NCBI RefSeq assembly: GCF_000829695.1
Contig: NZ_BBNN01000018.1
Location: 310,001 to 374,000, forward strand
Origin: Streptomyces sp. NBRC 110035
GTDB lineage: Bacteria > Actinomycetota > Actinomycetes > Streptomycetales > Streptomycetaceae
Direction of reading: 5' to 3'
Length of the DNA stretch: 64,000 bases
A program made the translations under genes and the position numbers. The notes beneath the pieces were generated by a model. The model ran no database searches. It worked only from the letters and a program-made list of their open reading frames with translations, and was not told where the DNA came from. Each line of letters begins with the position of its first letter. Position 1 is the first letter of the stretch. This document shows, one piece after another, positions 22,012 to 42,702 of this stretch.

Positions 22012-22160
22012 GGATCGCTCCTGGACTTAGAGGGAGGTACCGGGCGTCGCCTGGGGCGGCTCTGCCCGCGGGGGAGGTAAACCTTCTGCTGTGAACTGCT
22101 GAATGGATGAGCTGGTGAATCGGTGCGGTGGTGCGGTGGGGGCCGCCGGGTCGTCGTCGG

Positions 22161-22931: not shown

Positions 22932-23139
22932 GGCCGCACACCTGCTTCCTGCGTCGGTTGCCCGTTCGGGCCCCTTGAGGGCCTGCAGGAAGTTGTACAG
23001 CGGGTGTGCGGAGCTGACCAGGCCTGTTGAGTGACCGGTCCTGCCCGTTTGTGCCCGTTCGGCTCGGGAGGGGTCCGCCTCGGACCTGGACGGGGGCGGA
23101 GGGGGGCGGGGAAGCGGGCGCCGCGGGTGCCCGAATGCG

Positions 23140-23174
23140 GCGGCGGGCGGGCCCGTTCGGTGCCCGCCCGCCGC
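23140..23174. terminator. Hairpin after the uronate dehydrogenase gene
   Basis: Arms 23140-23152 and 23162-23174 pair over 13 bases with a 9-nt loop, 53 bp after the leftward stop at 23228. The gap 22932-23227 shows nothing else apart from the leader of the DeoR gene. Confidence 0.7.
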
Positions 23175-23227
23175 TGTGGACGTCGATTTTCCGCCGCCGT
23201 ACCCCCGGCGCCGTGCCGCAGATGTCG

Positions 23228-24239: not shown

Positions 24240-24269
24240 TCAGTCAAGAATGTGGACCTGGGAGAGCTT

Positions 24270-27361: not shown

Positions 27362-28120
27362 ATGACCTCTGTGCCCATGCCGATCCCCTCCCGCACGCAG
27401 TACGTGCTGGAAGAGATCAAACGACGCATCCTCACCGGCCGGCTCACGCCGGGCCAGGCTCTGGTCGAGACCGAACTCGCCGCGCAGTTCGGGGTGTCCA
27501 AGACCCCGGTGCGGGAGGCGCTCAAGACCCTGGCCGGCACCGGACTGGTCGTGATGAGCCAGTACAAGGGCGTCACGGTGCGCATGGTCGACGCGGACAT
27601 GGCACGCGAGGTCTACGACGTGCGGCTGCTCCTCGAACCCGAGGCGCTGCGGCGCGCCGTCCGCCGAGGCGCCTCCCTGGACGCCGCCCGCGACGCGCTG
27701 ACGCGGGCCGACGAGGCCACCGACACCGCCGAACGCTCCCTGACCAACCGCGAGTTCCACCGCGCCCTGTACCTGCCGTGCGGCAACCCGCTGCTCAGCC
27801 GGATGCTCGACGAGGTCCGCGACCAGGCCGCACTCGTCTCCGCCGTCGCCTGGGCCGCCGACCCCTCCTGGGAGCGGGAGGCGAGCGAGCACCGCGAGAT
27901 CCTGCGGCTCGCCCTGGCCGGCGACGCGGGCGGCGCGGCGCGCGCCCTGCACGCGCACATCGCCTCCTTCGTACTACGGGCCTTCCCCGGTGCGGAACTC
28001 GGAGCCGAGGAAGGCCTGGGAGGCCTGGGAATCCGGGAAGCCCAGGAGATCCTCGAAGCCACGGACACCCCCGAAGCGACGGCCGCCCCGGCAGCCCAGA
28101 AAGAGGACGGTCAGGCATGA
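27362..28120 (+). CDS. GntR family (FadR/FCD subfamily) transcriptional regulator
   Basis: 252 residues. The winged helix is YVLEEIKRRILTGRLTPGQA, LVETELAAQFGVSKTPVREA and LKTLAGTGLVVM. The FCD sensor domain follows, with REVYDVRLLLEPEALRRA, the histidine in REFHRALYLPCGNPLL and SEHREILRLALAGDAGGA. FCD regulators often sense organic or sugar acids. GAGAGG precedes the ATG. It is the first gene of a tightly coupled run through 36423, whose product list points to pectin-derived sugars, and it probably represses the run through the inverted repeat over the promoter. Confidence 0.92.
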   Translation: MTSVPMPIPSRTQYVLEEIKRRILTGRLTPGQALVETELAAQFGVSKTPVREALKTLAGTGLVVMSQYKGVTVRMVDADMAREVYDVRLLLEPEALRRAVRRGASLDAARDALTRADEATDTAERSLTNREFHRALYLPCGNPLLSRMLDEVRDQAALVSAVAWAADPSWEREASEHREILRLALAGDAGGAARALHAHIASFVLRAFPGAELGAEEGLGGLGIREAQEILEATDTPEATAAPAAQKEDGQA

Positions 28121-29025
28121 CGACCACGTTCGAGACCCAGCGGGCGGCCCTGGCCGACGTGGTGGCGATCCCGGTGACCCCGTTCGCCGAGGACGGCTCC
28201 GTCGACCCGGCCGGATACCGGGCCCTGCTGCGCCGCCTCCTCGACGCCGGCATCACCACCCTGACGCCCAACGGCAACACCGGCGAGTTCTACGCCCTCA
28301 CCCCCGAGGAGCGGCGCACGGTCACCGGGCTGACCCTCGAGGAGACCGGCGACGGCTCGTCCGTCCTGGTCGGCGTGGGACACGACGTGCCGACCGCCGT
28401 CGCCTCCGCACGGCACGCCCGTGACCTCGGAGCGCGGATGGTGATGGTGCACCAGCCCGTCCACCCCTACGTCTCCCAGAGGGGCTGGGTCGACTACCAC
28501 CGCGCCATCGCCGAGGCCGTGCCCGACCTGGGCGTCGTCCCCTACATCCGCAACCCCCAGCTCACCGGCGCCCGCCTCGCCGAACTCGCCGACTCCTGCC
28601 CCAACGTCATCGGCGTGAAGTACGCCGTGCCGGACGCGGCGAGGTTCGCCGCCTTCGCGCGGGACGCCGGCCTCGAGCGGTTCGTGTGGGTCGCCGGGCT
28701 CGCCGAGCCGTACGCCCCCTCCTACTTCTCCGCGGGCGCCACCGGCTTCACCTCCGGTCTGGTCAACGTCGCCCCGTCGGTGTCGCTCGACATGATCGGG
28801 GCGCTCAGATCGGGTGACTACGCGACCGCGATGAAGGTCTGGGAGCAGATCCGCCGCTTCGAGGAACTGCGCGCCGCCAACGGCTCCGCCAACAACGTCA
28901 CCGTCGTCAAGGAGGCCCTCGCCTCGCTCGGCCTGTGCCGCCGCGAGGTCCGCCCGCCGAGCAGGCCGCTGCCCGAGGACGAGCGGGCCGAGGTCGCCGC
29001 GATAGCCGCGGGGTGGTCCGTGTGA
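28117..29025 (+). CDS. DapA-family dehydratase/aldolase of sugar-acid catabolism
   Basis: 302 residues, starting inside the stop of the GntR gene. Landmarks: AIPVTPFAEDGSVDP, TPNGNTGEFYALTPEE, VVPYIRNPQLTG (Y143) and VIGVKYAVPDA (K168, Schiff base). These place it in the DapA/NAL superfamily but not among lysine-pathway enzymes. Coupled directly to an IlvD/Edd sugar-acid dehydratase, it most likely acts on the 2-keto-3-deoxy acid which that enzyme makes, either as a dehydratase (giving 2-oxoglutarate semialdehyde from a pentonate) or as an aldolase. The exact substrate cannot be read from the sequence. Confidence 0.85.
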   Translation: MTTTFETQRAALADVVAIPVTPFAEDGSVDPAGYRALLRRLLDAGITTLTPNGNTGEFYALTPEERRTVTGLTLEETGDGSSVLVGVGHDVPTAVASARHARDLGARMVMVHQPVHPYVSQRGWVDYHRAIAEAVPDLGVVPYIRNPQLTGARLAELADSCPNVIGVKYAVPDAARFAAFARDAGLERFVWVAGLAEPYAPSYFSAGATGFTSGLVNVAPSVSLDMIGALRSGDYATAMKVWEQIRRFEELRAANGSANNVTVVKEALASLGLCRREVRPPSRPLPEDERAEVAAIAAGWSV

Positions 29026-30767
29026 ACACACCGGCGAGCACACCGAGGAAGCGGCCCGAGGAACTGCGCAGCCACCAGTGGTACGGCACGGACGGCCTGC
29101 GCTCCTTCAGCCACCGCGCCCGCACCCGCCAGCTCGGCTACCTGCCCGAGGAGCACCTGGGCAAGCCCGTCGTCGCGATCCTCAACACCTGGTCCGACAT
29201 CAACCCCTGCCACGTCCACCTGCGCGACCGCGCGCAGGCCGTGAAGCGCGGGGTGTGGCAGGCGGGCGGCTTCCCGCTCGAGTTCCCGGTCTCCACGCTC
29301 AGCGAGACCTTCCAGAAGCCGACCCCGATGCTCTACCGCAACCTCCTCGCCATGGAGACCGAGGAACTGCTGCGCTCCTACCCGGTCGACGGAGCCGTGC
29401 TGATGGGCGGCTGCGACAAGTCCACGCCCGCCCTGCTCATGGGTGCGGCCAGCGTCGACCTGCCGACGGTGTTCGTGCCGGCCGGCCCCATGCTGCCGGG
29501 GCACTGGCGGGGCGAGGTGCTCGGCTCCGGCACCGACATGTGGAAGTACTGGGACGACAAGCGGGCCGGCGTCATCGGCGACTGCGAGATGCAGGAGCTG
29601 GAGAGCGGTCTGGCCCGCTCGCCCGGCCACTGCATGACCATGGGCACGGCGTCCACACTGACCGCCGCCGCCGAGGTCCTCGGCGTCACGATTCCGGGCG
29701 CCTCCAGCATCCCGGCCGTCGACTCCGGGCACGACCGGATGGCCGCCGCGGCCGGGCTGCGCATCGTCGAACTGGTCCACCGGGGCCGGAAGCTGAGCGA
29801 CATCCTCACCGCGGACGCCTTCGAGGACGCGGTGACGACCGTCCTGGGCCTCGGCGGCTCCACGAACGCCGTGATCCACCTGATCGCCATGGCCGGCCGC
29901 GCGGGTGTCTCCCTGACCCTCGACGACTTCGACCGCATCGCCCGCACCGTCCCGGTGCTCGCCAACGTACGGCCCGGCGGACAGACCTACCTGATGGAGG
30001 ACTTCCACTTCGCGGGGGGCCTGCCCGGGTTCCTCTCCCGGATCGAGGACCTGCTCCACCTGGAGAGGCCCACCGTCTCCCACGACACCCTGCGCGAACA
30101 GATCGCCGGCGCGCAGGTGCACCACGACGACGTCATCCGGCCCCGGGACAAGCCCGTCGCCGACGAGGGCGGGGTCGCCGTCCTGCGCGGCAACCTCTGC
30201 CCCGACGGCGCCGTCATCAAGCACATCGCGGCCGAACCGCACCTGCTCAGGCACACCGGCCCGGCCGTCGTCTTCGACGACTACCGGACCATGCAGCGCA
30301 CCATCAACGACCCGGACCTGGGCATCACCGCCGACCACGTGCTGGTGCTGCGCAACTCCGGCCCCAAGGGGGGACCCGGCATGCCCGAGTACGGCATGCT
30401 GCCGCTCCCCGACCACCTGCTCAGGCAGGGGGTACGGGACATGGTGCGGATCTCCGACGCCCGGATGAGCGGCACGAGCTACGGCACCTGCGTGCTGCAC
30501 ATCGCCCCCGAGTCGTACGTCGGCGGACCGCTGGCCCTCGTACGCACCGGGGACCTGATCACCCTCGACGTCGAACGCCGGCTGCTCCGGCTCGAGATCG
30601 ACGACGAGGAGCTGGACCGGCGCAGGGCCGCATGGACGCCCCCGCCCGCACGGTACGAGCGCGGATACGGCGCGCTCTACAACGAGCAGATCACCCAGGC
30701 CGACACCGGCTGCGACTTCGAGTTCCTCGCCCGGCCGGGCACGGTGCAGGACCCCTACGCGGGCTGA
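29022..30767 (+). CDS. IlvD/Edd family sugar-acid dehydratase
   Basis: 581 residues from a GTG overlapping the previous stop. Fe-S and active-site motifs: LNTWSDINPCH (C63), MGGCDKSTPALLMGAAS (C131, K133) and SPGHCMTMGTAST (C204), with GDCEMQELESG before it. This pattern belongs to the [2Fe-2S] pentonate/hexonate dehydratases (L-arabinonate, D-xylonate, D-galactonate type) rather than to biosynthetic IlvD. It would make a 2-keto-3-deoxy acid for the DapA-family enzyme encoded just before it. An arabinonate role fits a pectin locus since arabinan side chains give arabinose, but an aldarate role is also possible. Confidence 0.87.
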   Translation: MNTPASTPRKRPEELRSHQWYGTDGLRSFSHRARTRQLGYLPEEHLGKPVVAILNTWSDINPCHVHLRDRAQAVKRGVWQAGGFPLEFPVSTLSETFQKPTPMLYRNLLAMETEELLRSYPVDGAVLMGGCDKSTPALLMGAASVDLPTVFVPAGPMLPGHWRGEVLGSGTDMWKYWDDKRAGVIGDCEMQELESGLARSPGHCMTMGTASTLTAAAEVLGVTIPGASSIPAVDSGHDRMAAAAGLRIVELVHRGRKLSDILTADAFEDAVTTVLGLGGSTNAVIHLIAMAGRAGVSLTLDDFDRIARTVPVLANVRPGGQTYLMEDFHFAGGLPGFLSRIEDLLHLERPTVSHDTLREQIAGAQVHHDDVIRPRDKPVADEGGVAVLRGNLCPDGAVIKHIAAEPHLLRHTGPAVVFDDYRTMQRTINDPDLGITADHVLVLRNSGPKGGPGMPEYGMLPLPDHLLRQGVRDMVRISDARMSGTSYGTCVLHIAPESYVGGPLALVRTGDLITLDVERRLLRLEIDDEELDRRRAAWTPPPARYERGYGALYNEQITQADTGCDFEFLARPGTVQDPYAG

Positions 30768-30892
30768 CCGCGAGCACCACCCCCGCACAGCGGGGTCCGG
30801 CCCCGGACCGCGTGGACCCCCGCACATCCGAGGAGAAAGCGCTTCACCTCCGCACCGCATGCACGACGTACACCGAGAAACGGAGAACAGTC

Positions 30893-31828
30893 ATGGCCCA
30901 AGCCGCAGCCGTGGCGAAACCGCCCACGCCACCGAGGCGGCGCCGTGCCTCCGCCACGCCGCGCAGACTTCCCTACCTGCTGATCGCCCCGGCAGGCCTG
31001 CTCATGCTGGGCTTCATCGCCTACCCGGTCATCAGCGTCTTCTACTACAGCCTGCAGGAGTACAACCCCACCAAGCCGTGGCGGAACGGCTTCGCGGGCT
31101 TCGACAACTTCGTCCACCTCTTCACCGAGGACCCGCTGTTCTGGGACACCCTGGTCTTCAGCGCCAAGTGGGTCGTCGTCGAGGTCGGCCTCCAGCTGAT
31201 GTTCGGGCTCGCGCTGGCGCTCATCGTCAACCAGACCTTCATCGGCCGGGGCATCGGCCGCGCGCTGGTCTTCTCCCCGTGGGCCGTCTCCGGCGTGCTG
31301 ACCTCGGCGATCTGGGTGCTCCTCTACAACTCCCAGACCGGCATCACCCGCTACCTCGCCGACATGGGCATCGGCGACTACGGCACCAGCTGGCTCTCGG
31401 ACACCTCCACCGTCTTCTCGGCGGTGGTCGTCGCCGACCTGTGGCGCGGCGTCCCCTTCTTCGCCATCCTCATCCTCGCCGACCTCCAGTCCGTCTCCAA
31501 GGACCTGTACGAGGCCGCCGAGGTCGACGGGGCCAGCCGCTTCCAGCAGTTCACGCACATCACGCTGCCCCACCTCAAGGACGCCATCATCCTGTCCACG
31601 CTGCTGCGCGCGGTGTGGGAGTTCAACAACGTCGACCTGCTCTACACCCTCACCGGCGGCGGACCGGCCGGCGTGACCACGACGCTCCCGCTGTACATCG
31701 CCAACACCAGCGTCGACGCCCACGACTTCGGCTACGCGTCGGCCCTCACCACGGTCGCGTTCGTGATCCTGCTCTTCTGCTCGATCGTCTACCTGCGGCT
31801 GAGCAAGTTCGGAGGCGAAAGCAAGTGA
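30893..31828 (+). CDS. Sugar ABC transporter permease (MalF type) of the pectin operon
   Basis: 311 residues with six membrane segments after a basic 25-residue lead. The EAA loop is EAAEVDGASRFQQFTHITLP. GGAG lies 8 bases before the ATG. It is 125 bp downstream of the dehydratase gene, the largest gap in the run, so an internal promoter is possible. It overlaps the next permease by four bases. No ATPase gene is nearby. Confidence 0.92.
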   Translation: MAQAAAVAKPPTPPRRRRASATPRRLPYLLIAPAGLLMLGFIAYPVISVFYYSLQEYNPTKPWRNGFAGFDNFVHLFTEDPLFWDTLVFSAKWVVVEVGLQLMFGLALALIVNQTFIGRGIGRALVFSPWAVSGVLTSAIWVLLYNSQTGITRYLADMGIGDYGTSWLSDTSTVFSAVVVADLWRGVPFFAILILADLQSVSKDLYEAAEVDGASRFQQFTHITLPHLKDAIILSTLLRAVWEFNNVDLLYTLTGGGPAGVTTTLPLYIANTSVDAHDFGYASALTTVAFVILLFCSIVYLRLSKFGGESK

Positions 31829-32727
31829 TCACCAAAGAGGCCGCCCCGGCCGCCCCCGCCCCCGCGCGCTCCGCCGCCGAGCCGCCGAGCCGCCCCGCGA
31901 GGAAGAAGCACCGGGCCTGGGACGAGGTGCCCCGCTGCCACATCTACCTCCCCCTGGGCATCTACCTCCTGTTCACCCTCGTCCCCTTCTACTGGATCCT
32001 GCTCTTCGCCCTGCGCCCGGCCGGCTCGACCTCGCTGGTGCCCTGGCCGATGACCACCGCCCACTTCGAGAAGGTGTGGACGGACCGGGCCTTCGGCACC
32101 TTCTTCCAGAACAGCGTGCTCGTGGGCGTCGCCACCCTGATCACGACGACGCTGGTCGCCCTGGCCGGCGGCTACGCGCTCGCTCGGTTCGACTTCCGCG
32201 TCAAGCGGGTCTTCATGCTCGCCCTGCTGTGCTCCCAGTTCGTGCCCGGCGCGCTGCTCCTGGTCCCGCTGTTCGAGATCTTCGCCGGACTGCAGATGAT
32301 CAACTCGCTCGGCAGCGTCATCATCGCCGAGACGGTCTTCCAGCTCCCGCTGTCGATGATCCTGATCAGCAACTTCATCAAGAACGTGCCGTACTCCCTG
32401 GAGGAGGCCGCCTGGGTCGACGGGTGCAGCAGGATGCGGGCGTTCCGGGTGGTCGTCCTGCCGCTGCTGCGGCCCGGACTGATCGCCGTCGGCTCCTTCG
32501 CCTTCGTCCACTCCTGGAACCACTTCCTGTTCGCCCTGATGTTCCTCAACAACCAGGAGAAGCAGACCATCCCCGTCGGTCTGAACACCCTGATGAGCGC
32601 GGACAGCGTCGACCTCGGCGCCCTCGCCGCGGGCGGCATCATCGCGGCCGTGCCCGTCGTGATCGTGTTCGCCTTCATCCAGAAGTGGCTGATCACCGGC
32701 TTCAGCGCGGGGGCGGTGAAGGGATGA
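31825..32727 (+). CDS. Sugar ABC transporter permease (MalG type) of the pectin operon
   Basis: 300 residues from a GTG inside the previous stop. Six membrane segments; EAA loop EEAAWVDGCSRMRAFRVVVLP. A proline- and alanine-rich cytoplasmic start (to about residue 28) precedes the first helix. It is the heterodimer partner of the MalF-type permease, for uptake of pectin-derived oligosaccharides together with the binding protein at 36517-37881. Confidence 0.92.
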   Translation: MITKEAAPAAPAPARSAAEPPSRPARKKHRAWDEVPRCHIYLPLGIYLLFTLVPFYWILLFALRPAGSTSLVPWPMTTAHFEKVWTDRAFGTFFQNSVLVGVATLITTTLVALAGGYALARFDFRVKRVFMLALLCSQFVPGALLLVPLFEIFAGLQMINSLGSVIIAETVFQLPLSMILISNFIKNVPYSLEEAAWVDGCSRMRAFRVVVLPLLRPGLIAVGSFAFVHSWNHFLFALMFLNNQEKQTIPVGLNTLMSADSVDLGALAAGGIIAAVPVVIVFAFIQKWLITGFSAGAVKG

Positions 32728-34019
32728 CCGCACCCGACGCCGCAGCTCGGGCCGCTCTGGGGGCTCCCTCCGGTGCCACCTCCCGGCCCGAGCCGCCGGC
32801 AGAACCGCTGCCCGTCGTGCTCGCAGGTGCCCGCGGCCACGGCCGCTGGCACCTGGCGAACATCCGCAGGCTCCAGGAGGACGGGCTCGTCCGGCTGGCC
32901 GGTATCTGCGAGCTCACCCCGCTCACCGAGGACGAGTTCGGGGGTGGCCGGCCCGGGGGCCGGCCACCCGAGCAGTCGGCCGACTTCGGCGCCCTGCTGG
33001 AGTCCACCGGGGCCCGCATCGCGGTCGTCTGCACCCCGATCCACACCCACACCGACCTCGCCCTCGCCGCGGCCGGACGGGGCGTGCACCTCCTGCTGGA
33101 GAAGCCGCCGGCGCCGTCCTGCGCCGAGTACCTGCGGATGGCCGACGGGGTCGCCGCCGCGGGGGTCGCCTGCCAGATCGGCTTCCAGTCACTGGGCTCG
33201 CACGCCGTGCCCGCCATCCGCGCCCTGGTCGCCGACGGCGCCATCGGCCGGCCGACCGGGATCGGCGCCGCCGGGGCCTGGGTACGCCCGGAGGACTACT
33301 TCCGGCGGGCGCCCTGGGCGGGCCGGCGCCGACTGGACGGCGTCGACGTGATCGACGGGGCGCTGACCAACCCCCTCGCCCACGCCGTCGCCACCGCCCT
33401 GGCGCTGGCCGGCAGCACCCGCGCCGAGGACGCCACCGGTATCGAGACCGAACTGCTGCGCGCCAACGACATCGAGTCCGACGACACCTCCTGCGTCCGC
33501 GTCACCACCGCACAGGGCCTGCCGGTCACCGTCGCCGCGACCCTGTGCGCCGAGCGGGCCGACGAGCCGTACGTCCTCGTGCACGGCACCAGCGGCCGGA
33601 TCACCTTCTGGTACAAGCAGGACCGCGTCCTGGTCCAGCGTGCCGGCCACGGTCCCGAGGAACTCCGCTTCGGCCGGACCGACCTGCTGGAGAACCTCGT
33701 CGACCACCTCGTCACCGGCGCCCCGCTGCTCGTCACGCCGGACGGGACGGGCGCCTTCATGAAGGTCGTCGAGGCGATCCGGCGCGCCCCCGACCCCGCC
33801 CCGCTGCCCGCCGGCGCCTGGCACCACGTCCCCGGCGAGAACCGCCGGGTCGTCCCCGGCGTCGACGGCCTCGTCGCGGCCGCCGCCGACACCCTGTCCC
33901 TCTACTCCGAACTCGGCGCCTCCTGGGCCCTGCCCGCACCACAGGACGTACCCGAGTCCGTACGGCAGTCCGAGGAACCGTCCGCACCGCACCCACCGAA
34001 AGAGGTGAGCACCCGATGA
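32724..34019 (+). CDS. Gfo/Idh/MocA family oxidoreductase
   Basis: 431 residues, starting inside the permease stop. The N-terminal Rossmann fold begins after about 30 extra residues with VVLAGARGHGRWHLANIRRL, and the hallmark EKP motif is in LLLEKPPAPSCAEY. The C-terminal half is the substrate domain (RLDGVDVIDGALTNPLAHAV, with the conserved histidine). These enzymes oxidise or reduce sugars with bound NAD(P). The next gene encodes DUF6807, a pairing common in polysaccharide loci. It may make a 3-keto glycoside as the first step of an oxidative cleavage, or may modify a uronate. Confidence 0.85.
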   Translation: MTAPDAAARAALGAPSGATSRPEPPAEPLPVVLAGARGHGRWHLANIRRLQEDGLVRLAGICELTPLTEDEFGGGRPGGRPPEQSADFGALLESTGARIAVVCTPIHTHTDLALAAAGRGVHLLLEKPPAPSCAEYLRMADGVAAAGVACQIGFQSLGSHAVPAIRALVADGAIGRPTGIGAAGAWVRPEDYFRRAPWAGRRRLDGVDVIDGALTNPLAHAVATALALAGSTRAEDATGIETELLRANDIESDDTSCVRVTTAQGLPVTVAATLCAERADEPYVLVHGTSGRITFWYKQDRVLVQRAGHGPEELRFGRTDLLENLVDHLVTGAPLLVTPDGTGAFMKVVEAIRRAPDPAPLPAGAWHHVPGENRRVVPGVDGLVAAAADTLSLYSELGASWALPAPQDVPESVRQSEEPSAPHPPKEVSTR

Positions 34020-34861
34020 CCAGCGACGACTTCGCGGTCCTGCGCGTCGCGGGCCGGCCGGTCGGCCGGTACGTCACCCGGCCCGAGCTGCCCCCGAGGC
34101 TCTCCCCGCGCCCGTATCTGCACCCCGTCACCACCCTGGCGGGCACGGTGGTCACCGAACTGTCGCCCGCGGACCACACCCACCACCTCGGCGTCGGTGT
34201 CGCCGTTCCCGACGTCGAGGGGAACAACTTCTGGGGCGGGCGCACCTACGTCCGTGACCGGGGCCCGACCGAGCTGGACAACCACGGCTCCCAGCGGCAC
34301 TCCGGCTTCCAGCTCCGGGACCCCGACGGCTTCGTGGAGGAGCTGCGCTGGATCGCCGCCCCGGGCGAGCTGCTGCGGGAGCGCCGCACCGTCGCCGCCA
34401 CCGAACTCACCGACACCGCCTGGGCGCTGGACTTCACCTTCTCCCTCACCAACGTCACCACGGACCCCCTCTCGGTCGGCAGCCCGGCCACCAACGGCCG
34501 CCCCGGCGCCGCCTACGGAGGCTTCTTCTGGCGGGCCCGCAAGGAGGAGCCGGAGCCGGACGTCTTCACCGCCTCCGCCCAGGGAGCGGAGACGGCACAC
34601 GGGCGCCCGGCCGACTGGCTGGCCCTGGCCGGCGCCGACTGGACGCTGGTGTTCGCCGGAGCCACCGCGGCGACCCGCCGCGACCCCTGGTTCGTGCGCA
34701 CCGCCGAGTACCCCGGCGTCGGATCCTCCCTCGCCCATGACGCACGGCTGCCCGTCCCGCCCGGGGAGACGGTGGTCCGCCGCGTCGTCACCGTTGTCGC
34801 CGACGGCCGCCTCGGCAGGGACGCCGCCGCCGCCCTGGTCCGCAAGGCGGTGAGCCCGTGA
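34016..34861 (+). CDS. DUF6807 (PmoA family) protein
   Basis: 281 residues, overlapping both neighbours. Typical of the family are YLHPVTTLAGTVVTELSPAD, HTHHLGVGVAVPDVEGNNFWG and ELDNHGSQRHSGF. The protein is cytoplasmic and all-beta in appearance. The conserved histidines (HTHH and RHSG) could bind metal or a sugar. No activity is firmly established for the family as far as I know. It always appears here with the Gfo/Idh/MocA enzyme, which suggests sequential action on the same imported sugar. Confidence 0.85.
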   Translation: MTSDDFAVLRVAGRPVGRYVTRPELPPRLSPRPYLHPVTTLAGTVVTELSPADHTHHLGVGVAVPDVEGNNFWGGRTYVRDRGPTELDNHGSQRHSGFQLRDPDGFVEELRWIAAPGELLRERRTVAATELTDTAWALDFTFSLTNVTTDPLSVGSPATNGRPGAAYGGFFWRARKEEPEPDVFTASAQGAETAHGRPADWLALAGADWTLVFAGATAATRRDPWFVRTAEYPGVGSSLAHDARLPVPPGETVVRRVVTVVADGRLGRDAAAALVRKAVSP

Positions 34862-36423
34862 GCGCCCCGCCGACGGACCTCATCTACCGCAACCCGGTGC
34901 TCGACGCCGACTGGTCCGACCCGGACGTGATCCGCGTCGGGGACGACTTCTACCTGACCGCCTCCAGCTTCGGCCGGGCCCCCGGGCTGCCGCTGCTGCA
35001 CTCCCGCGACCTGGTCAACTGGACGCTCGTCGGCCACGCGCTGCAACGCCTGGAACCCGAGGGCGAGTTCGCGGTGCCCCGGCACGACCGCGGGGTCTGG
35101 GCGCCCTCCCTGCGCCACCACGACGACCGCTTCTGGATCTTCTGGGGCGACCCCGACCAGGGCGTCTTCCAGATCAACGCCCCCGGGATCCGCGGCCCTT
35201 GGACCCGCCCCCACCTGGTGAAGGCGGGCAAGGGCCTGATCGACCCGTGCCCGCTGTGGGACGAGGAGACCGGCGAGGCGTACCTCGTGCACGCCTGGGC
35301 GAGGTCCCGCTCCGGCATCAAGAACCGTCTCACCGGCCACCGCATGCACCCCCACGGCACCGGACTCCTCGACGAGGGCAAGGTGATCGTCGACGCCGAC
35401 CGCATCCCCGGCTGGTTCACCCTGGAGGGGCCCAAGCTCTACCGGCACGACGGCTGGTTCTGGATCCTGGCGCCCGCCGGGGGAGTGGAGACCGGCTGGC
35501 AGGGCGCCTTCCGGTCGCGCGACTTCTTCGGTCCGTACGAGGAGAGGGTCGTCCTGGAACAGCGGGACACCGACGTCAACGGACCCCACCAGGGCGGCTG
35601 GGTGCGCACTGCGTCGGGTGAGGACTGGTTCCTGCACTTCCAGCAGCGCGGGGCGTACGGCAGGGTCGTGCACCTCCAGCCGATGCGCTGGGAGCGGGCC
35701 GCGGACACCTCCGGGCCGGGCGAAGGCGGGAGGGGGAGCGCCGGCGGCTGGCCGGTGATCGGGGACGACGGCGCCCCGGTCGCGGAGCACCGCCGCCCGG
35801 ACCTGCCCGCCCAGCCCGCCGCCGCGCCCGCCACCGACGACGACTTCCCGGGCGGCCGGCACGGCCGTCAGTGGCAGTGGACGGCCAACCCCCGGGACGG
35901 CTGGGCCACCCAGCACTCCGCCGACGGTCTGCGGCTGACCTGCGTCCGCACCGCCGACGCGCACGACCTGCGCACACTGCCCAACGTCCTCACCCAGCGG
36001 CTGCCCGGCACCCCGTGCACCGTCGAGGTGGAACTGCGGCTCGACAGCGAGGAGCCCGGAGCACGGGCGGGCCTCGCCGTCCTCGGGGACGCCTACGCCT
36101 GGATCGGACTCCAGCGCGACGCGGACGGCACGGCGCGCCTCGTGCACCGGTTCGCCGAGACGGTCGCCGAGAGCGAACGCGACGCCGGTCACCCCCGGCT
36201 CGCCCCCGAGGGCCGGGCCCGGCTGCGGATCGAGGCCGGCCCCGGAGCCCGCTGCCGCTTCTCGTACGACACCGGGGACGGCTTTCGTCCCTCCGGGCAG
36301 GTCTTCGCCGCCACCCCGTGGCGCTGGGTCGGCGCCCTGCTCGGCCTGACCGCCCTCGCCCCGACGGGTCAGGGGCACGCCGGGACGGCGACCTTCACGC
36401 GGTTCAGGATCAGCCCCACGTAA
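34858..36423 (+). CDS. Intracellular glycoside hydrolase family 43 (arabinosidase/xylosidase type)
   Basis: 521 residues from a GTG overlapping the previous stop. The five-bladed propeller of GH43 occupies the first about 300 residues with all three catalytic acids: D21 (DWSDPDVIRVGDDFYLTASS), D129 (GLIDPCPLWDEETGEAYLVH) and E190 (FTLEGPKLYRHDGWFW). A second beta-sandwich domain follows (about 325-520), as in subfamily 12-like enzymes. There is no signal peptide, so it trims imported oligosaccharides in the cytoplasm. It would release arabinose or xylose from pectic side chains. Confidence 0.9.
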   Translation: MSAPPTDLIYRNPVLDADWSDPDVIRVGDDFYLTASSFGRAPGLPLLHSRDLVNWTLVGHALQRLEPEGEFAVPRHDRGVWAPSLRHHDDRFWIFWGDPDQGVFQINAPGIRGPWTRPHLVKAGKGLIDPCPLWDEETGEAYLVHAWARSRSGIKNRLTGHRMHPHGTGLLDEGKVIVDADRIPGWFTLEGPKLYRHDGWFWILAPAGGVETGWQGAFRSRDFFGPYEERVVLEQRDTDVNGPHQGGWVRTASGEDWFLHFQQRGAYGRVVHLQPMRWERAADTSGPGEGGRGSAGGWPVIGDDGAPVAEHRRPDLPAQPAAAPATDDDFPGGRHGRQWQWTANPRDGWATQHSADGLRLTCVRTADAHDLRTLPNVLTQRLPGTPCTVEVELRLDSEEPGARAGLAVLGDAYAWIGLQRDADGTARLVHRFAETVAESERDAGHPRLAPEGRARLRIEAGPGARCRFSYDTGDGFRPSGQVFAATPWRWVGALLGLTALAPTGQGHAGTATFTRFRISPT

Positions 36424-36516: not shown

Positions 36517-37881
36517 ATGAAGATCAGCAATCGCAGAAGCAGCAGCACTGGCAGGCGCCGGACGTCGGCCGCCGTCGCCCTGGGCGCCGTGCTCGCGCTG
36601 ACCGTCACCGCCTGCGGCGACAGCGGCAGCGGCGCGGGCGGCGACCAGGGTGCCGAGGGCAACGGCACGGGCAAGATCACCTTCTGGGACAACAACGGCG
36701 GTATCCGTACCGACATCTGGAAGGAGATCATCGCCGACTTCGAGAAGGCCAACCCGGACATCGAGGTCGATTACGTCGGGATCGCGTCCACCGAGTACCA
36801 GTCCAAGGTCGACACCGCCATCCAGGGCGGCGGCCTGCCGGACGTCGGCGGTGTCGGCGCGGCGATGCTCGCGGGCTTCGCCGCCCAGCAGGCGCTCGCC
36901 CCGCTGGACGACCGGCTGGGGGAGTCGTCCCTCGACGGGAAGCTCAACAAGGACATGGCCGAGTCGCTGCGGGCCGCCGGCGGCGGTGACGACAAGCTGT
37001 ACTCGATCCCGACCTCCGCGAACAACGGAGTCCTCTACTACCGCACCGACCTGTTCGAGGCGGCGGGTCTCGAGGAGCCGACCACCTGGGACCGCTTCTT
37101 CGAGGCCGCGGGCAAGCTCACCAACAAGGGCGAGAACGAGTTCGGCTACACCATCCGCGGCGGCGCCGGCTCCGTCGCGCAGGCCCTGGACGCGATGTAC
37201 GGGCAGTCCGGCATCACCACGTTCTGGGACTCCACCGGTGAGAAGACCACGGTCAACGACCCGAAGAACGTCGAGGCCCTGGAGAAGTACGCGGACCTGT
37301 TCAAGAAGGTCACTCCCGCCGCCGACCTGAACAACGACTTCACCAAGATGGTCGCGCAGTGGGACTCGGGCACCATCGGCATGCTCAACCACAACCTCGG
37401 CTCCTACCAGGACCACGTGAAGGCGCTCGGTGCCGACACGTTCCGGGGCATCCCGCAGCCGACCGGACCCGACGGGGCCCGCGTCCAGGTCTCCAACCCG
37501 GTCGACGGGCTCGGCGTGTTCCAGAGCTCCAAGAACAAGGACGCCGCCTGGAAGTTCATCGAGTACGCCACCTCGGCCGAGGCCAACTCGAAGTTCAACG
37601 AGTCCGCGGGACAGGTGCCGGCCCACCTCGACGCCGCCGAGGACGACTGGATCCGGAAGGCGGAGCCGACGAAGCTGGCCGCGGACGCGCTGAGCGACGG
37701 GTCGACGACGATCGTCCAGCTGCCGTACTACCTGCCCGACTGGAACACCATCTCCAAGGCCGACAACGAGCCCGGCTTCCAGAAGGTGCTGCTCGGGGAC
37801 ATGAGCGCCAAGGACTTCCTCGACAACCTGGCCGAGCAGCTGAACGAGGCCCAGGCCGAGTGGCAGGAGCAGATGGCCTGA
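36517..37881 (+). CDS. Sugar ABC transporter substrate-binding lipoprotein of the pectin operon
   Basis: 454 residues. Lipobox LTVTAC at about residues 28-33 after an arginine-rich start. SBP_bac_1 body: ITFWDNNGGIRTDIWKEIIA, later AAWKFIEYATSAEANSKFNE. It follows the coupled operon by 93 bp and is ended by a hairpin at 37959-38002. The order permeases first, binding protein last is unusual and suggests its own ribosome loading or promoter; a short run of AG-rich repeats (CCAGAA, CCAGAAG) lies in the gap. Confidence 0.9.
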   Translation: MKISNRRSSSTGRRRTSAAVALGAVLALTVTACGDSGSGAGGDQGAEGNGTGKITFWDNNGGIRTDIWKEIIADFEKANPDIEVDYVGIASTEYQSKVDTAIQGGGLPDVGGVGAAMLAGFAAQQALAPLDDRLGESSLDGKLNKDMAESLRAAGGGDDKLYSIPTSANNGVLYYRTDLFEAAGLEEPTTWDRFFEAAGKLTNKGENEFGYTIRGGAGSVAQALDAMYGQSGITTFWDSTGEKTTVNDPKNVEALEKYADLFKKVTPAADLNNDFTKMVAQWDSGTIGMLNHNLGSYQDHVKALGADTFRGIPQPTGPDGARVQVSNPVDGLGVFQSSKNKDAAWKFIEYATSAEANSKFNESAGQVPAHLDAAEDDWIRKAEPTKLAADALSDGSTTIVQLPYYLPDWNTISKADNEPGFQKVLLGDMSAKDFLDNLAEQLNEAQAEWQEQMA

Positions 37882-38002: not shown

Positions 38003-38096
38003 ACCAGCCGCGCCCGCCCCGGTGCGGCCCCGCACACAGGTACAGTCCCGCGCCCCGCACGGCGCCTCCCGGACCCTTGCTGAAAGGCACAGGCTT

Positions 38097-38903
38097 GTGT
38101 CGCTCACTCGCAGACAGGTTTCCGCCGCCGGTCTCGGACTTCCCCTCGCCCTCGCCGTGACCGGCACCGCCCGGGCCGCCCCCGGGCGCCCCCGCCCCCG
38201 CACCCTGTACATCGCCGGGGACTCCACCGCGGCCCGGAAATACGCCGACGCCGCCCCCGAGACCGGATGGGGCACGACGCTCCCCTTCCTGCTCCGCCCC
38301 GGCCTGGATGTCGTCAACCATGCCGTGAACGGGCGGAGTTCGAAGAGCTTCGTCGACGAGGGGCGGCTGGACGCGATCCTCGCCGCCGTCCGGCCCGGCG
38401 ACCTCCTGCTGATCCAGTTCGCGCACAACGACGAGAAGGCCACCGACCCGGCCCGCCACACCGAGCCCTGGACGACGTACCAGGACTACCTGCGGCTGTA
38501 CGTCGACGGGGCCAGGGCCCGCGGGGCGCGGCCCGTGCTGGCCACCGCCGTGGAACGCCGGAGGTTCGACGCGGACGGTGCCGCCGTGCCGAGCCACGGC
38601 GACTACCCGGCGGCGATGCGGGCGCTGGCCGGCGAGGAGCGGGTCGCGCTGCTCGACACCCAGGCCCTGTCGCTGGCGCTGTGGCAGGAGCTCGGCGTCG
38701 AGGAGACCAAGAAGTACTTCAACTGGACCGCGACCGAGCAGGACAACACGCACTTCAACCCGCCCGGCGCGATCGCCGTGGCGCGGCTGGTCGCCCGGGA
38801 ACTGCTGCGCACCCGGGTGCTCGCGCCGCGGGAGGTGCGCCGGCTGAACGACGTGATCCCCGAAGCGTGGATCACCTGGCCGGACGCCGGCGCCACCGCC
38901 TGA
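38097..38903 (+). CDS. Secreted rhamnogalacturonan acetylesterase (SGNH/GDSL family)
   Basis: 268 residues from a GTG at 38097 (AAAGG about 10 bases before). The N-terminus, SLTRRQVSAAGLGLPLALAV, is a twin-arginine-like signal ending near ARA-AP. SGNH blocks: GDSTAA (catalytic serine, block I), NHAVNGRSSKSF, QFAHNDEK (block III) and DNTHFNPPGA (catalytic Asp and His, block V). The family removes acetyl groups from rhamnogalacturonan backbone residues, which clears the way for lyases. The pectate lyase gene follows 32 bp later, so the two are probably co-transcribed. Confidence 0.88.
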   Translation: MSLTRRQVSAAGLGLPLALAVTGTARAAPGRPRPRTLYIAGDSTAARKYADAAPETGWGTTLPFLLRPGLDVVNHAVNGRSSKSFVDEGRLDAILAAVRPGDLLLIQFAHNDEKATDPARHTEPWTTYQDYLRLYVDGARARGARPVLATAVERRRFDADGAAVPSHGDYPAAMRALAGEERVALLDTQALSLALWQELGVEETKKYFNWTATEQDNTHFNPPGAIAVARLVARELLRTRVLAPREVRRLNDVIPEAWITWPDAGATA

Positions 38904-38935: not shown

Positions 38936-40285
38936 ATGAACAGACCTGCATGGCATGCGCATGCCACGACGAAGGCCGCCACGCTGGCCGGCTGCACCGC
39001 CCTCGTACTGGCCCTGACCGGCACCGGCGCCCAGGCCCACGGCCCTCACCACGGCGATCACCCCGGCAAGCACCGCGACCCCGCCCGGCAGACCCTCGGC
39101 GCGAACGACGGCTGGGCGTCCCACGGCACCGGCACCACCGGAGGCGCCGACGCCGCCCCCGAGCACGTCTACACCGTCAGCGACTGGGCCGGGTTCAAGG
39201 CGGCCCTGGCGGACGGCGGCAGCGCACCGAAGATCATCAAGGTGCGGGAAACCATCGACGCGGTCTCCGCGGGCTGCGACTCGCTCGCCGCCCCCGGCTA
39301 CGACTTCGACGCCTACCTGGAGAAGTACGCGCCCGAGACCTGGGGCCTGGAACAGGACCTGAGCGACGAGGGCGACGACAGCCCCGAGGGCCTGCGCAGG
39401 GCCTCGGCGGCGAACCAGAACACCGAGATCAAAGCGAACGTCCCCGCCAACACCACGATCATCGGCATCGGGAGGAACGCCGGGTTCAAGGGCGCCAGCC
39501 TGCAGATCAAGGACGTCGACAACGTCATCGTCCGCAACCTCACCCTCGAGAGCCCCCTCGACTGCTTCCCGCAGTGGGACCCGACCGACGGCGACCGGGG
39601 CAACTGGAACTCCGAGTACGACACCGCCGTCGTGTACAACTCCACCCACGTCTGGCTGGACCACAACACCTTCACCGACGGCGAGCACCCCGACAGCGCC
39701 GCCCCCACCCACTTCGGGATGCTGTACCAGCAGCACGACGGCGAGCTGGACATCGTCCGCGGCGCCAACTACGTCACCGCCTCCTGGAACGTCTTCACCG
39801 AGCACGACAAGACGATCCTGATCGGCAACAGCGACAGCGAGTCCACGGCCGCCGGAGACCGGGGCAGGCTGAAGGCGACCTTCCACCACAACCTGTTCTC
39901 GAAGCTGGTCGAGCGCGCGCCGCGGGTCCGCTTCGGACAGGTCGACGTCTACAACAACCACTTCGTGGCGGAACAGGGCTTCTCCTACAGCTTCGGCATC
40001 GGCAAGGAGTCCCAGCTCGTCGCCGAGCACAACGCGTTCACCCTGGCGAAGGGCGTCACTCCGGGGAAGATCCTCAAGCGGTGGAACGACTCGCCGCTCA
40101 CGGCCCGGAACAACCTCGTCAACGGCAAGCGGGTCGACCTGATCGCCGTGCACAACGCGGAGATCCCCGAGGAGCCCCTCCGGTCCGGTGCCGGCTGGAC
40201 ACCCACCCTGCGCGCCGACGTCGACCGGGTGCGGGCGGTCCCGGCGCTGGTCAAGCACGGCGCGGGAGCGGGCCGTCTGCGCTGA
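38936..40285 (+). CDS. Secreted pectate lyase, polysaccharide lyase family 1
   Basis: 449 residues with a Sec-type signal peptide ending near AQA-HG (residue about 34), then a histidine-rich stretch. The right-handed beta-helix shows PL1 motifs: VWLDHNTFTDGE (residues 239-250, calcium-binding aspartate), EHDKTILIGNSDS (289-301) and ERAPRVRFGQVDVYNN (326-341, with the catalytic arginine region). It cleaves polygalacturonate by beta-elimination outside the cell. AGGGAGAG lies before the ATG. A long insert (about residues 120-160) separates the first turns and appears lineage-specific. Confidence 0.92.
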   Translation: MNRPAWHAHATTKAATLAGCTALVLALTGTGAQAHGPHHGDHPGKHRDPARQTLGANDGWASHGTGTTGGADAAPEHVYTVSDWAGFKAALADGGSAPKIIKVRETIDAVSAGCDSLAAPGYDFDAYLEKYAPETWGLEQDLSDEGDDSPEGLRRASAANQNTEIKANVPANTTIIGIGRNAGFKGASLQIKDVDNVIVRNLTLESPLDCFPQWDPTDGDRGNWNSEYDTAVVYNSTHVWLDHNTFTDGEHPDSAAPTHFGMLYQQHDGELDIVRGANYVTASWNVFTEHDKTILIGNSDSESTAAGDRGRLKATFHHNLFSKLVERAPRVRFGQVDVYNNHFVAEQGFSYSFGIGKESQLVAEHNAFTLAKGVTPGKILKRWNDSPLTARNNLVNGKRVDLIAVHNAEIPEEPLRSGAGWTPTLRADVDRVRAVPALVKHGAGAGRLR

Positions 40286-40420: not shown

Positions 40421-41605
40421 ATGCCCTCGCCCCACGGCCGTCCGCTGCCGTCGTCCCCGCACACGTCGGTGCCCGTCTCCCGGCGGGGCCTCCTGCTCGC
40501 GGGCGCCTCGGCCGCCACCGCCACCGCCACCGCGCTCGCCCTGGCCGCCGCCCCCGCGCAGGCCGCCCGGGCCACCGGTCACCCGCGCCGCCCGTTCGGC
40601 CGGTACGGCTCGCCCGCCGACCGCCTGACCCCAAAGACCCTGTACGTCCACCCCGGCGGTGCCGGCGACTTCACCTCCGTCCAGGCGGCCGTGACCGCCG
40701 CGACCGGCACCGGACGCGTCCTCGTCCTGGCCCCCGGCACCTACCGTGAGACGGTCTCCGTGGAGGCCGACCGCACCGGCATGACCTGGATCGGCGCCTC
40801 GCACGACCCGCGCGACGTGGTCATCGTGTACGACAACGCGGCCGGCACTCCGAAGCCGGACGGCTCCGGCACCCACGGCACCTCCGGCTCCGCGACCACC
40901 ACCGTGCGCCCCGACGGCTTCACCGCCCGGTGGATCACCTTCGCCAACGACTGGCTGCGCACCGACCTCCCCGGCACCAGCGGCACCCAGGCCGTCGCCC
41001 TCAAGGTGCAGGGCGACCGCAGTGCCTTCACCCACTGCCGGTTCCTCGGCCACCAGGACACCCTGTACGCCGACTCCCTCTCCCGGGACACCTTCGCCCG
41101 CCAGTACTTCTCGCACTGCTACGCCGAGGGCGACGTCGACTTCGTCTTCGGCCGGGCGACCGCCGTCTTCGCACACTGCCACTTCCGCACCCTGACCCGC
41201 CCGGACCTGACCGGCGCCCCGTACGGCTTCGTCTTCGCACCCTCCACGGCCGGCGCCAACCCGCGCGGCTACCTCGTCACGCAGAGCAGGGTCAGCAGCG
41301 AGGCGCCCGACGGCTACTACAAGCTGGCCCGCCCCTGGGTGCCCAGCTCCGACCCCACCGCCCGCCCGATGCTCACCGTCCGCGACACCCACCTCGGCCC
41401 CGGCATCGACGCGGTCGCGCCCTGCACCGACATGGCAGCCGGCCATCCCTGGCAGGACCAGCGCTTCGCCGAGTACCGCAACAGCGGTCCCGGTGCCGCG
41501 GTCACCGTCCCGGAGAACCGGCCCCGGCTCACCCGGGCCCAGGCCGCCGCCCACACTCCCGGGGCCTACCTCGGCGACTGGCACCCCCGGCCGGCCGCGA
41601 AGTGA
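40421..41605 (+). CDS. Secreted pectin methylesterase (carbohydrate esterase family 8)
   Basis: 394 residues from an ATG with AAGGAG 7 bases upstream. A twin-arginine-like signal (VSRRGLLLAGASAA) ends near AQA-AR. CE8 motifs: GHQDTLYAD (catalytic Asp), GDVDFVFGRATAVF (second catalytic Asp) and YYKLARPW (the conserved arginine). The enzyme removes methyl esters from homogalacturonan, which pectate lyases need. Its stop overlaps the start of the hydrolase gene behind it, so the two are made together. Confidence 0.9.
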   Translation: MPSPHGRPLPSSPHTSVPVSRRGLLLAGASAATATATALALAAAPAQAARATGHPRRPFGRYGSPADRLTPKTLYVHPGGAGDFTSVQAAVTAATGTGRVLVLAPGTYRETVSVEADRTGMTWIGASHDPRDVVIVYDNAAGTPKPDGSGTHGTSGSATTTVRPDGFTARWITFANDWLRTDLPGTSGTQAVALKVQGDRSAFTHCRFLGHQDTLYADSLSRDTFARQYFSHCYAEGDVDFVFGRATAVFAHCHFRTLTRPDLTGAPYGFVFAPSTAGANPRGYLVTQSRVSSEAPDGYYKLARPWVPSSDPTARPMLTVRDTHLGPGIDAVAPCTDMAAGHPWQDQRFAEYRNSGPGAAVTVPENRPRLTRAQAAAHTPGAYLGDWHPRPAAK

Positions 41606-42702
41606 CCTCCGCCCCCGCCCGCATCCCTGTCCCGGGCCCGCCCGGCCTCCACCGGGCGCTCAAGGACGACCTGACGTTCCCCCTCGCCTGGGGCACCTCG
41701 CCCGTCCGGGACTTCGACGCGTGGCGGCGGGCGGCCCGGGACAAGGTCGAGGACCTGCTCGTCGTGGACGACCAGACGGACACCCCGTACGCACCCGAGT
41801 TCACCGCGGGCCCCGCCGGAAGCGGGCAGGAGGACGGTTGCACGCGCGAGGTGGTGACCCTCTCCCTCACCCGCTACGGCAGGGTCCGCGGCGCGCTGCT
41901 CACCCCGCGCGGTACCGGCCCCTTCCCCGCCGTGCTGCTCCTGCACGACCACGGCTCCCGCTTCGACATCGGCAAGGAGAAGTGCGTCCGCCCCTGGTAC
42001 GACGACACCGGCACCCGTCTCGCCTCCGCCGAGCAGTGGGCCGCGCGGCACTTCGGCGGACGCTTCGTCGGCGACGAACTCGCCCGGCACGGCTACGTCG
42101 TGCTCTGTCTGGACGCCCTGGGCTGGGGCGAGCGGGGGCCGTTGGCCTACGAGCGGCAGCAGGAACTGGCGAGCAACCTCTTCCACCTCGGCTCCTCGCT
42201 CGCCGGGCTCCACGCCCGCGAGGACCAGCGCGCCGCCGCCTTCCTGGCCGGCCTCGAGAGGGTGGACGCCCGCCGGGTGGCCGCCCTGGGTTTCTCCATG
42301 GGCGGCTACCGGGCCTGGCAGGTGGCCGCGCTCAGCGACCACATCGCGGCCGCGGCGAGCGTGTGCTGGATGACCGGGCTGAAGGACATGACGGTGCCCG
42401 GCAACAACACGCTGCGCGGGCAGTCGGCCTTCCACATGCTCCACCCCGGCCTCACCCGGCACCTGGACATCCCCGACGTGGCGAGCATCGCCGCACCCCG
42501 GCCGATGCTGTTCTTCCACGGCGGGCTCGACCCGCTGTTCCCCGCCGACGGCGTGCACACCGCGTACAGCCGGCTGCGTACCGTGTGGCGTTCACAGGAC
42601 GCCGGCCACCGACTGCGCCTGAAGACGTGGCCGGACCGCGGCCACGTCTTCGACGGCGCGATGCAGGACGAGGTCCACGCCTGGCTCGCCTCCGTCCTGT
42701 GA
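41602..42702 (+). CDS. Alpha/beta hydrolase, dienelactone-hydrolase/acetyl-xylan-esterase type
   Basis: 366 residues from a GTG inside the pectinesterase stop; no signal peptide. Catalytic elements: ALGFSMGGYRAW (nucleophile serine), FFHGGLDPLFPADG (Asp) and WPDRGHVFDGA (His). The long N-terminal part with FPAVLLLHDHGSRFDIGKEK resembles the abhydrolase_7 group found in polysaccharide loci. It probably removes acetyl or other ester groups from imported pectic fragments in the cytoplasm. Convergent with the secreted GH43 gene 19 bp away. Confidence 0.83.
   Translation: MTSAPARIPVPGPPGLHRALKDDLTFPLAWGTSPVRDFDAWRRAARDKVEDLLVVDDQTDTPYAPEFTAGPAGSGQEDGCTREVVTLSLTRYGRVRGALLTPRGTGPFPAVLLLHDHGSRFDIGKEKCVRPWYDDTGTRLASAEQWAARHFGGRFVGDELARHGYVVLCLDALGWGERGPLAYERQQELASNLFHLGSSLAGLHAREDQRAAAFLAGLERVDARRVAALGFSMGGYRAWQVAALSDHIAAAASVCWMTGLKDMTVPGNNTLRGQSAFHMLHPGLTRHLDIPDVASIAAPRPMLFFHGGLDPLFPADGVHTAYSRLRTVWRSQDAGHRLRLKTWPDRGHVFDGAMQDEVHAWLASVL

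Follow-up and report, generated by a model that had tools for sequence, protein, structure and literature searches.

The Oxidoreductase, DUF6807, and GH43 Genes of the Pectin Operon

The stretch of DNA analysed here comprises 64,000 nt of Streptomyces sp. NBRC 110035 (contig NZ_BBNN01000018.1, positions 310,001–374,000; hereafter the window) and contains a pectin operon, within which lie three consecutive genes on the forward strand. These encode a Gfo/Idh/MocA oxidoreductase (P0001, 431 aa, 32724–34019; hereafter Gfo), a DUF6807 protein (281 aa, 34016–34861), and a GH43 enzyme with a GH43_C2 domain (P0002, 521 aa, 34858–36423). The full order of the operon is a GntR regulator, an enzyme of the dihydrodipicolinate synthase (DHDPS) family, an IlvD dehydratase, two ABC permeases, Gfo, DUF6807, GH43, a solute-binding protein, a GDSL esterase, a PL1 pectate lyase, a CE8 pectinesterase, and an alpha/beta hydrolase, so that a pectate lyase and a pectinesterase are among its secreted enzymes. 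Four-base overlaps join Gfo to DUF6807 (34016–34019) and DUF6807 to GH43 (34858–34861), and a third joins the end of the second permease to the start of Gfo (32724–32727). The first-pass annotation of this DNA had described such an overlapping set behind two permeases of a sugar import operon, and both the coordinates and the Pfam matches agree with it. The cytoplasmic location that it gave to the three proteins is also borne out, since none of them has a signal-like start by reading of the sequence, and such starts are seen in PL1, CE8, and the GDSL esterase.

All three genes are clear members of their families. P0001 scores 42.3 bits on PF01408 (cut-off 24) and 40.4 bits on PF22725 (cut-off 27). 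The DUF6807 protein reaches 243.6 bits on PF14100 (cut-off 27, E 3.7e-72), covering positions 8–269 of the 270 in the profile. P0002 scores 234.8 bits on PF04616 (cut-off 32.2, E 1.8e-69) and 88.4 bits on PF17851 (E 7.1e-25), and its nearest solved relatives by sequence are GH43-CE (6mly) and the arabinofuranosidase BoGH43B. The start of Gfo at 32724 is slightly uncertain, because the codon-usage caller favoured 32817, residues 1–18 of the structural model are of low confidence, and the N-termini differ among orthologues.

Linkage of Gfo and DUF6807 Genes

The linkage was examined in 141 loci selected by DUF6807 alone, that is, the window, 60 loci from Streptomyces and its relatives, and 80 named loci, which are the best 80 of 555. 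In the close relatives there were 67 places matching PF14100, six of which did not enter the adjacency count (G050:C391, G001:C63, G044:C1, G021:C14, G053:C11, and G020:C42, the last four being broken, partial, or weak), giving the 60 fetched loci and the window. In the G053 locus (L228), neither a Gfo nor a DUF6807 gene was called. Genes in the fetched loci were called with our own codon-usage script and not taken from annotation, and some loci possibly belong to the same genome (e.g., L024 and L153) and are counted separately.

Gfo is located directly upstream of DUF6807 on the same strand in 125 of the 141 loci (123 by gene calls and two, L106 and L109, by tblastn). In three further loci (L059, L062, and L072) Pfam shows the two as a single fused protein of 627–670 aa, with Gfo at the N-terminal and DUF6807 at the C-terminal end, and in five they are adjacent in another orientation, so that 133 of the 141 are adjacent or fused. 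Gfo is a few genes away in two loci, and two more are truncated at a sequence end, including L052, the stretch of which starts at the DUF6807 match. As a control, among 1,859 other genes from these loci, 7 have Gfo directly upstream. Moreover, of the 123 same-strand pairs, 106 have an in-frame start giving a four-base overlap with the Gfo stop. Because of these overlaps and the rarity of Gfo before the control genes, the coupling is not due to chance, which it far exceeds. Distances of Gfo and DUF6807 proteins correlate at 0.935 over the 123 pairs, a mirror-tree value that has no control and is not used as evidence.

The pair is also found on plasmid records of Paenarthrobacter (L162) and of the haloarchaeon Halomontanus (L163), where the genes overlap. 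Three of the six matching plasmid records were opened, and two of these (L163 and L164) make up the evidence beyond Actinomycetota. The first-pass proposal hung on the two families occurring together outside this strain, and with 133 of the 141 loci and an archaeon they do. The same does not apply to GH43, which had been presented as part of the coupled set: it adjoins the pair in 18 of the 19 loci of the pectin type and is not labelled beside the pair in the other loci, and thus it is not a steady partner. DUF6807 itself occurs in 36 of 61 close relatives, compared with 10 out of 198 in a phylum-wide sample of genomes.

The pair is found in several other settings. In another actinobacterial class, the pairs of L229 and L230 are window-like and adjoin an importer as well as two additional Gfo genes (by Pfam for L229), and L230 additionally carries DUF993. 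A cupin-like gene follows DUF6807 in the four paralogous pairs tested, two of which exceed the Pfam cut-off. In the importer operon of L043 (4499–9591) the pair comes after GH30 and GH10 and before a cupin-like gene, in a xylan-like setting without GH43; gene lengths in L050 and L082–L094 resemble this operon. In Amycolatopsis bullii (L099, 8895–14867) Gfo, DUF6807, a GDSL-type gene, and GH115 are consecutive. The GH115 gene is two genes after the pair, and by the function of GH115 this is another uronic-acid setting, possibly linked to uronic-acid xylans. In L140 (9935–18488) the genes after DUF6807 encode a 2-hydroxyacid dehydrogenase and an enolase-superfamily protein, Gfo comes further along, and L142 is similar in appearance. 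On a Catenovulum plasmid (L164, 11058–12750) a ThuA-domain gene overlaps DUF6807.

Predicted Fold and Conserved Residues of DUF6807

Structure prediction, proposed earlier as a check, gave a mostly beta model of the DUF6807 protein (AlphaFold2, 46 sequences) with a pLDDT of 89.5 and a pTM of 0.89, and the fold predicted, at good confidence, is a galactose-mutarotase-like beta-supersandwich. Among the 50 matches listed, VIA Z scores range from 14.6 to 17.8. The best of them is 9ayu (Z 17.8, rmsd 3.1, 214 residues aligned), and the GalM-like matches include 3k25 (Z 16.5, rmsd 3.8, 219 aligned), 3mwx (16.4, 3.6, 222), and 4bze (16.2, 3.7, 222). GH36 and GH97 enzymes match the model via their N-terminal parts. 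Since we take these parts to be noncatalytic, the fold does not give a function for DUF6807. The predicted fold does not support the label "PmoA family protein" that one annotation gives to DUF6807.

In sequence, no link to the aldose 1-epimerases was found: PF14100 is the only Pfam match at E ≤0.01, without PF01263, and hhalign gives a probability of 0.06% against eight mutarotases. PF06439 (DUF1080) also gave no match at E ≤0.01. A search of PDB sequences with the DUF6807 profile returned six matches, all at chance level (E 0.33–0.81).

Eighteen positions are invariant in 14 divergent members, namely P33, P37, P51, H54, H57, G59, N71, W73, G91, R124, G161, Y167, G169, R173, G196, W201, G206, and W225. 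Nearly invariant are D53, E122, and R162, with position 122 being E or D. Of the two histidine motifs to which the first-pass annotation had drawn attention, the HTHH pair stands, as H54 and H57 of D-H-T-H-H (DHxxH) are among the invariant residues. At least 90% of 46 actinobacterial relatives retain the histidine of RHSG (H95), but in several of the divergent members (e.g., L043 and L060) it is replaced.

The earlier remark that DUF6807 has no proven reaction agrees with the literature searched, in which no assigned reaction was found, many subscription papers being outside its scope. PMC10971088 mentions the family in a remark on a Pfam release. In the Lac161 soil clone, a PF14100 protein (ORF9) is encoded beside the GH43-like beta-galactosidase ORF10 and the enolase-superfamily ORF8 (PMC5342196). 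DUF6807 is thus next to a GH43-like enzyme there, as in the window; the passages on Lac161 report no assay of ORF9, and neither the word Gfo nor the word oxidoreductase appears in the main text (PMC5342196).

Relationships of the Oxidoreductase

P0001 is of a divergent type, with an identity of 71–85% to window-type proteins, 43–45% to the L060/L061 type, and 20–27% to other linked Gfo proteins. The lysine of EKP (K127) and the catalytic histidine (H220) are invariant in all 34 linked Gfo proteins compared. A profile of these 34 proteins places WlbA (3q2i and 3q2k) and DgpA first, followed by aldose–aldose oxidoreductase, DgpA1, and GFOR. In the PDB sequence search with P0001 alone, the nearest are 4h3v, levoglucosan dehydrogenase, and WlbA, and P2B11 ranks lower. 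Foldseek with the P0001 model (pLDDT 74) lists scyllo-inositol and L-glucose dehydrogenases first and then DgpA2, levoglucosan dehydrogenase, DgpA, and P2B11. VIA Z scores among the 50 matches listed are 28.2–30.8 and tied across the superfamily, and these rows were not used for choosing between oxidation at C1 and at C3.

The solved proteins closest to the linked Gfo proteins include enzymes oxidising C3, namely WlbA, DgpA, levoglucosan dehydrogenase, and P2B11. These relationships lean toward C3 as the position that Gfo may oxidise.

Pectate Lyases in Streptomyces and GH28 in a Sister Family

The gene content of the operon was compared, by tblastn scoring of presence and absence, between Streptomyces and a sister family. 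In the latter, 9 of the 13 genomes with a near-full-length IlvD were fetched, some cut by contig ends, and the split G047 was not counted. The 19 window-type loci of Streptomyces have PL1 and Gfo in all cases, GH43 in 18, CE8 in 17, and GH28 in none; IlvD is found in 18, the remaining locus being a 6-kb contig. These loci were selected by DUF6807, the presence of which is thus by choice. When the selection was by an IlvD above the cut-off, a window-type DUF6807 was found within a few kilobases in 18 of 21 Streptomyces; in the other three, G001 and G017 are broken by contig ends and G021 (L193) has no window-type DUF6807.

The operons of the sister family have the same GntR–DHDPS–IlvD core with a different importer. 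The secreted polygalacturonase GH28 is present in five out of nine (confirmed by Pfam in L194, L195, and L208) and uronate dehydrogenase in four out of nine, and PL1, Gfo, DUF6807, and GH43 were each found in none of the nine fetched stretches. GH28 is accordingly replaced by a pectate lyase where Gfo and DUF6807 appear, from which we infer that the pair deals with the products of the pectate lyase. The substrate is most likely an oligogalacturonide, perhaps unsaturated, released by this enzyme. This comparison would narrow the arabinosides, xylosides, rhamnosides, and unsaturated uronides considered in the first-pass annotation toward the galacturonides.

Sugar-Acid Genes and Other Genes of the Locus

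The first gene of the operon encodes a GntR/FCD regulator (27362–28120, +; PF00392 and PF07729) and is followed by the DHDPS-family enzyme, a sugar-acid lyase or dehydratase (28117–29025, +; PF00701). The best NCBIfam model of the latter is PRK03620 with 153.5 bits, under its cut-off of 278, and its best PDB matches (3e96 and 3d0c) are both named only dihydrodipicolinate synthase. The third gene is an IlvD/EDD sugar-acid dehydratase of the L-arabinonate dehydratase subfamily (29022–30767, +), which exceeds the equivalog cut-off of PRK13016/NF009559 (932.9 bits vs. 882) and matches 9evv and 5j83 at E 5.6e-183. The two ABC sugar permeases (30812–31828 and 31825–32727, both +) score 62.8 and 67.4 bits, respectively, on PF00528 (BPD_transp_1).

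Downstream of GH43 are the ABC solute-binding protein (36517–37881, +; PF01547, E 6.9e-47) and the GDSL esterase with a Tat-like signal (38022–38903, +; PF00657, 28.8 bits, cut-off 23.6), presumably rhamnogalacturonan acetylesterase-like. These are followed by the secreted PL1 pectate lyase (38936–40285, +; PF00544, 176.9 bits, signal-like N-terminus) and the secreted CE8 pectinesterase (40340 or later to 41605, +; PF01095, 105 bits, signal-like stretch). The alpha/beta hydrolase, similar to DLH and acetyl esterases, overlaps CE8 by four bases (41602–42702, +; PF01738, 42.1 bits). Beside the operon is a second GH43-like gene (42722–43816, −; PF04616, 37.5 bits).

A neighbouring divergent block upstream contains a uronate dehydrogenase (23228–24037, −; phmmer 6mfh, E 5.8e-78; 3rft, E 1.2e-68) and a KdgD-like gene of the 5-dehydro-4-deoxyglucarate dehydratase subfamily (24252–25211, +). 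The latter scores 428.9 bits on PRK03620 (cut-off 278) and, on the stricter KdgD equivalog, 318 bits, under the cut-off of 373.95. In the window this block immediately precedes the operon, as it does in 14 of 17 other Streptomyces. Beside the KdgD-like gene is ORF396 (25208–26398, +, 396 aa), which is next to KdgD or the uronate dehydrogenase in 14 of 17 loci and has an identity of 69–84% across 11 aligned Streptomyces relatives. It has no Pfam, NCBIfam, or PDB match, and it is possibly an intracellular pectin enzyme. The region 17854–24037 (−) forms a second sugar locus with a Zn-dependent dehydrogenase, permeases, a solute-binding protein, a DeoR regulator, and the uronate dehydrogenase, and it adjoins the pectin operon, whole or in part, in other Streptomyces. 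A TerD-domain protein (16216–17430, −) is located beside these sugar loci. The genome has no matches to GH28, GH88/GH105, or PL22; GH4 was not searched for.

Comparison with Known Systems

In oxidative glycoside cleavage (DgpA–DgpBC and AtOGE of Agrobacterium), a Gfo/Idh/MocA 3-dehydrogenase is linked to an unrelated second protein, as is the case here, and one of the solved proteins closest to the linked Gfo proteins is DgpA of that system. The OGE/CGE eliminases are Mn2+-dependent TIM barrels (PMC10628242), in contrast to the beta-supersandwich predicted for DUF6807. The BT2157-type DUF1080 protein is a 3-ketoglycoside hydrolase; in Caulobacter crescentus it has been proposed to act together with the LacABC dehydrogenase, whose genes are close by (PMC9007349). 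As proposed for DUF6807, it is a DUF protein acting on a 3-keto sugar; it differs in its domain, PF06439. The galactose mutarotase/aldose 1-epimerase superfamily has the predicted fold in common with DUF6807 (VIA Z 14.6–16.5 for the GalM-like matches listed), without a sequence relation at the profile level. The glucuronide-3-dehydrogenase P2B11 (8tdi) is of the Gfo type and is named for a uronide, although its match to P0001 is weak (E 3.4e-8), with 18% identity in the structural match. We know of no DUF6807 partner of P2B11.

Proposed Function and Alternatives

Since the two genes are kept together in most of the relatives analysed and are sometimes fused, DUF6807 probably works on an oxidised sugar. 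Our tentative reading, which we hold at somewhat less than even confidence, is that Gfo and DUF6807 form one cytosolic unit for imported pectic fragments, with Gfo oxidising and DUF6807 cleaving. The importer of the operon would bring the fragments into the cytosol, where Gfo would use NAD(P)+ to oxidise a galacturonosyl or delta-4,5-galacturonosyl residue; the position is probably C3, which is allylic if the residue is unsaturated. The resulting ketone would acidify the C2 proton. DUF6807 would then bind the oxidised sugar, remove this proton, and expel the aglycone, either by elimination and hydration or by hydrolysis, H54, H57, and E122 serving as the acid and base. GH43 may trim arabinose or xylose side groups. 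The released galacturonate would pass to the uronate dehydrogenase, the IlvD-type dehydratase, and the DHDPS/KdgD enzymes. In the known oxidative uronate route, galacturonate is oxidised, dehydrated, and carried to 2-oxoglutarate (PMC5114784), and the dehydration of galactarate may be the step of the IlvD protein. The more specific proposal, in which DUF6807 would be a new family of lyases or hydrolases with the mutarotase fold that cleave 3-keto uronides made by the adjacent or fused Gfo, is doubtful. The earlier suggestion of C3 oxidation followed by DUF6807 cleavage is partly supported: the linkage speaks for the pairing and the C3-oxidising relatives of Gfo for the oxidation, whereas relatives acting at C1 rank alongside and the cleavage is an inference.

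Several observations weigh against this reading. GFOR, aldose–aldose oxidoreductase, and the L-glucose dehydrogenase 5yap, all C1 oxidisers, rank alongside the C3-oxidising relatives, and the L-glucose dehydrogenase among the first Foldseek matches was solved with L-glucono-1,5-lactone, that is, with C1 oxidised. P0001 is also below the cut-offs of four NCBIfam oxidoreductase models, glycoside 3-dehydrogenase included. Where inositol dehydrogenase has a catalytic Asp, four residues before the histidine, the aligned column holds Asn in the window and L060 types and mostly Gly in the remaining linked Gfo proteins, a difference that does not exclude activity. Gfo was not found at four of the 141 DUF6807 loci (L025, L033, L069, and L074), and the Catenovulum plasmid has DUF6807 without an annotated Gfo in a 24.7-kb stretch. 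Many pairs are located outside pectin settings, such as the L118 type and L229/L230. As for the contrast with GH28, it is in effect one evolutionary event between one genus and one family, GH28 was not seen in four of the nine fetched sister stretches, and Streptomyces L193 has GntR–DHDPS–IlvD with neither set. Finally, the cleaving enzyme might be ORF396, GH43 itself, or a member of a family that was not searched for.

The association with the pectate lyase would fit equally a role similar to that of KduI and KduD. In that case GH43 or ORF396 would split the unsaturated dimer, the freed unsaturated galacturonate would open to 5-keto-4-deoxyuronate, DUF6807 (as an isomerase of mutarotase fold) and Gfo (as a reductase) would convert this to 2-keto-3-deoxygluconate, and the DHDPS-family enzyme would cleave the product. 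Neither KduI nor KduD turned up in the scanned genes of the operon, and the DHDPS-family enzyme matches YagE, a probable 2-keto-3-deoxy-galactonate aldolase (E 1.7e-24), although it also matches keto-deoxy-galactarate dehydratase (6.4e-24) and both are surpassed by 3e96 and 3d0c. However, one KduI-family protein, of the KduI or IolB type, is encoded elsewhere in the genome, the pair occurs far from pectin genes too, and the first cut would fall to GH43 or to an uncharacterised protein, so that we consider this role unlikely. If DUF6807 were instead an accessory protein, a mutarotase or sugar-binding partner giving Gfo the right anomer without cleaving any bond, the predicted fold would be accounted for, and both the fusions and the tight coupling would suit the feeding of an anomer. 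The lack of aldose 1-epimerase similarity in the profile comparison and of a PF01263 match makes such a role quite improbable.

The score of the IlvD protein, above the curated L-arabinonate dehydratase cut-off, and the lack of an L-arabinose isomerase (AraA) match in the genome at first suggested the nonphosphorylative L-arabinose route. Five genes would then serve five steps: GH43 frees L-arabinose, Gfo oxidises C1, DUF6807 is a lactonase or mutarotase, IlvD is the L-arabonate dehydratase, and the DHDPS-family enzyme is the 2-keto-3-deoxy-L-arabonate dehydratase. The Azospirillum dehydrogenase of this route is a Gfo protein. On the other hand, the absence of AraA says little, because 32 of 37 Streptomyces have no match irrespective of the operon, and the sister operons with similar IlvD and DHDPS genes carry the uronate dehydrogenase or GH28 in the proportions given above, which points to galacturonate. 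These two observations weaken the route as the principal explanation. In addition, none of the 34 PDB matches of P0001 is named L-arabinose dehydrogenase, and outside the window type no IlvD-like gene is labelled near the pairs, a search that did not include enolase-type dehydratases, one of which is encoded near DUF6807 in L140. The genome has two SMP-30 matches elsewhere, one with an internal stop, and therefore the lactonase slot need not belong to DUF6807. The arabinose route thus appears rather unlikely.

Implications for Pectin Use

Through the comparison, DUF6807 gains a partner and a definite class of substrate. If the oxidation and cleavage of pectic fragments by Gfo and DUF6807 is true, the pair would be a further independent solution for the cleavage of 3-keto-glycosides, adding a fold to the enzymes of the second step. 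It would also provide a route for the products of pectate lyases without GH28, GH88/105, or PL22, and would explain how pectin could be used by a Streptomyces that has a pectate lyase and no match to these three standard oligogalacturonide-cutting families.

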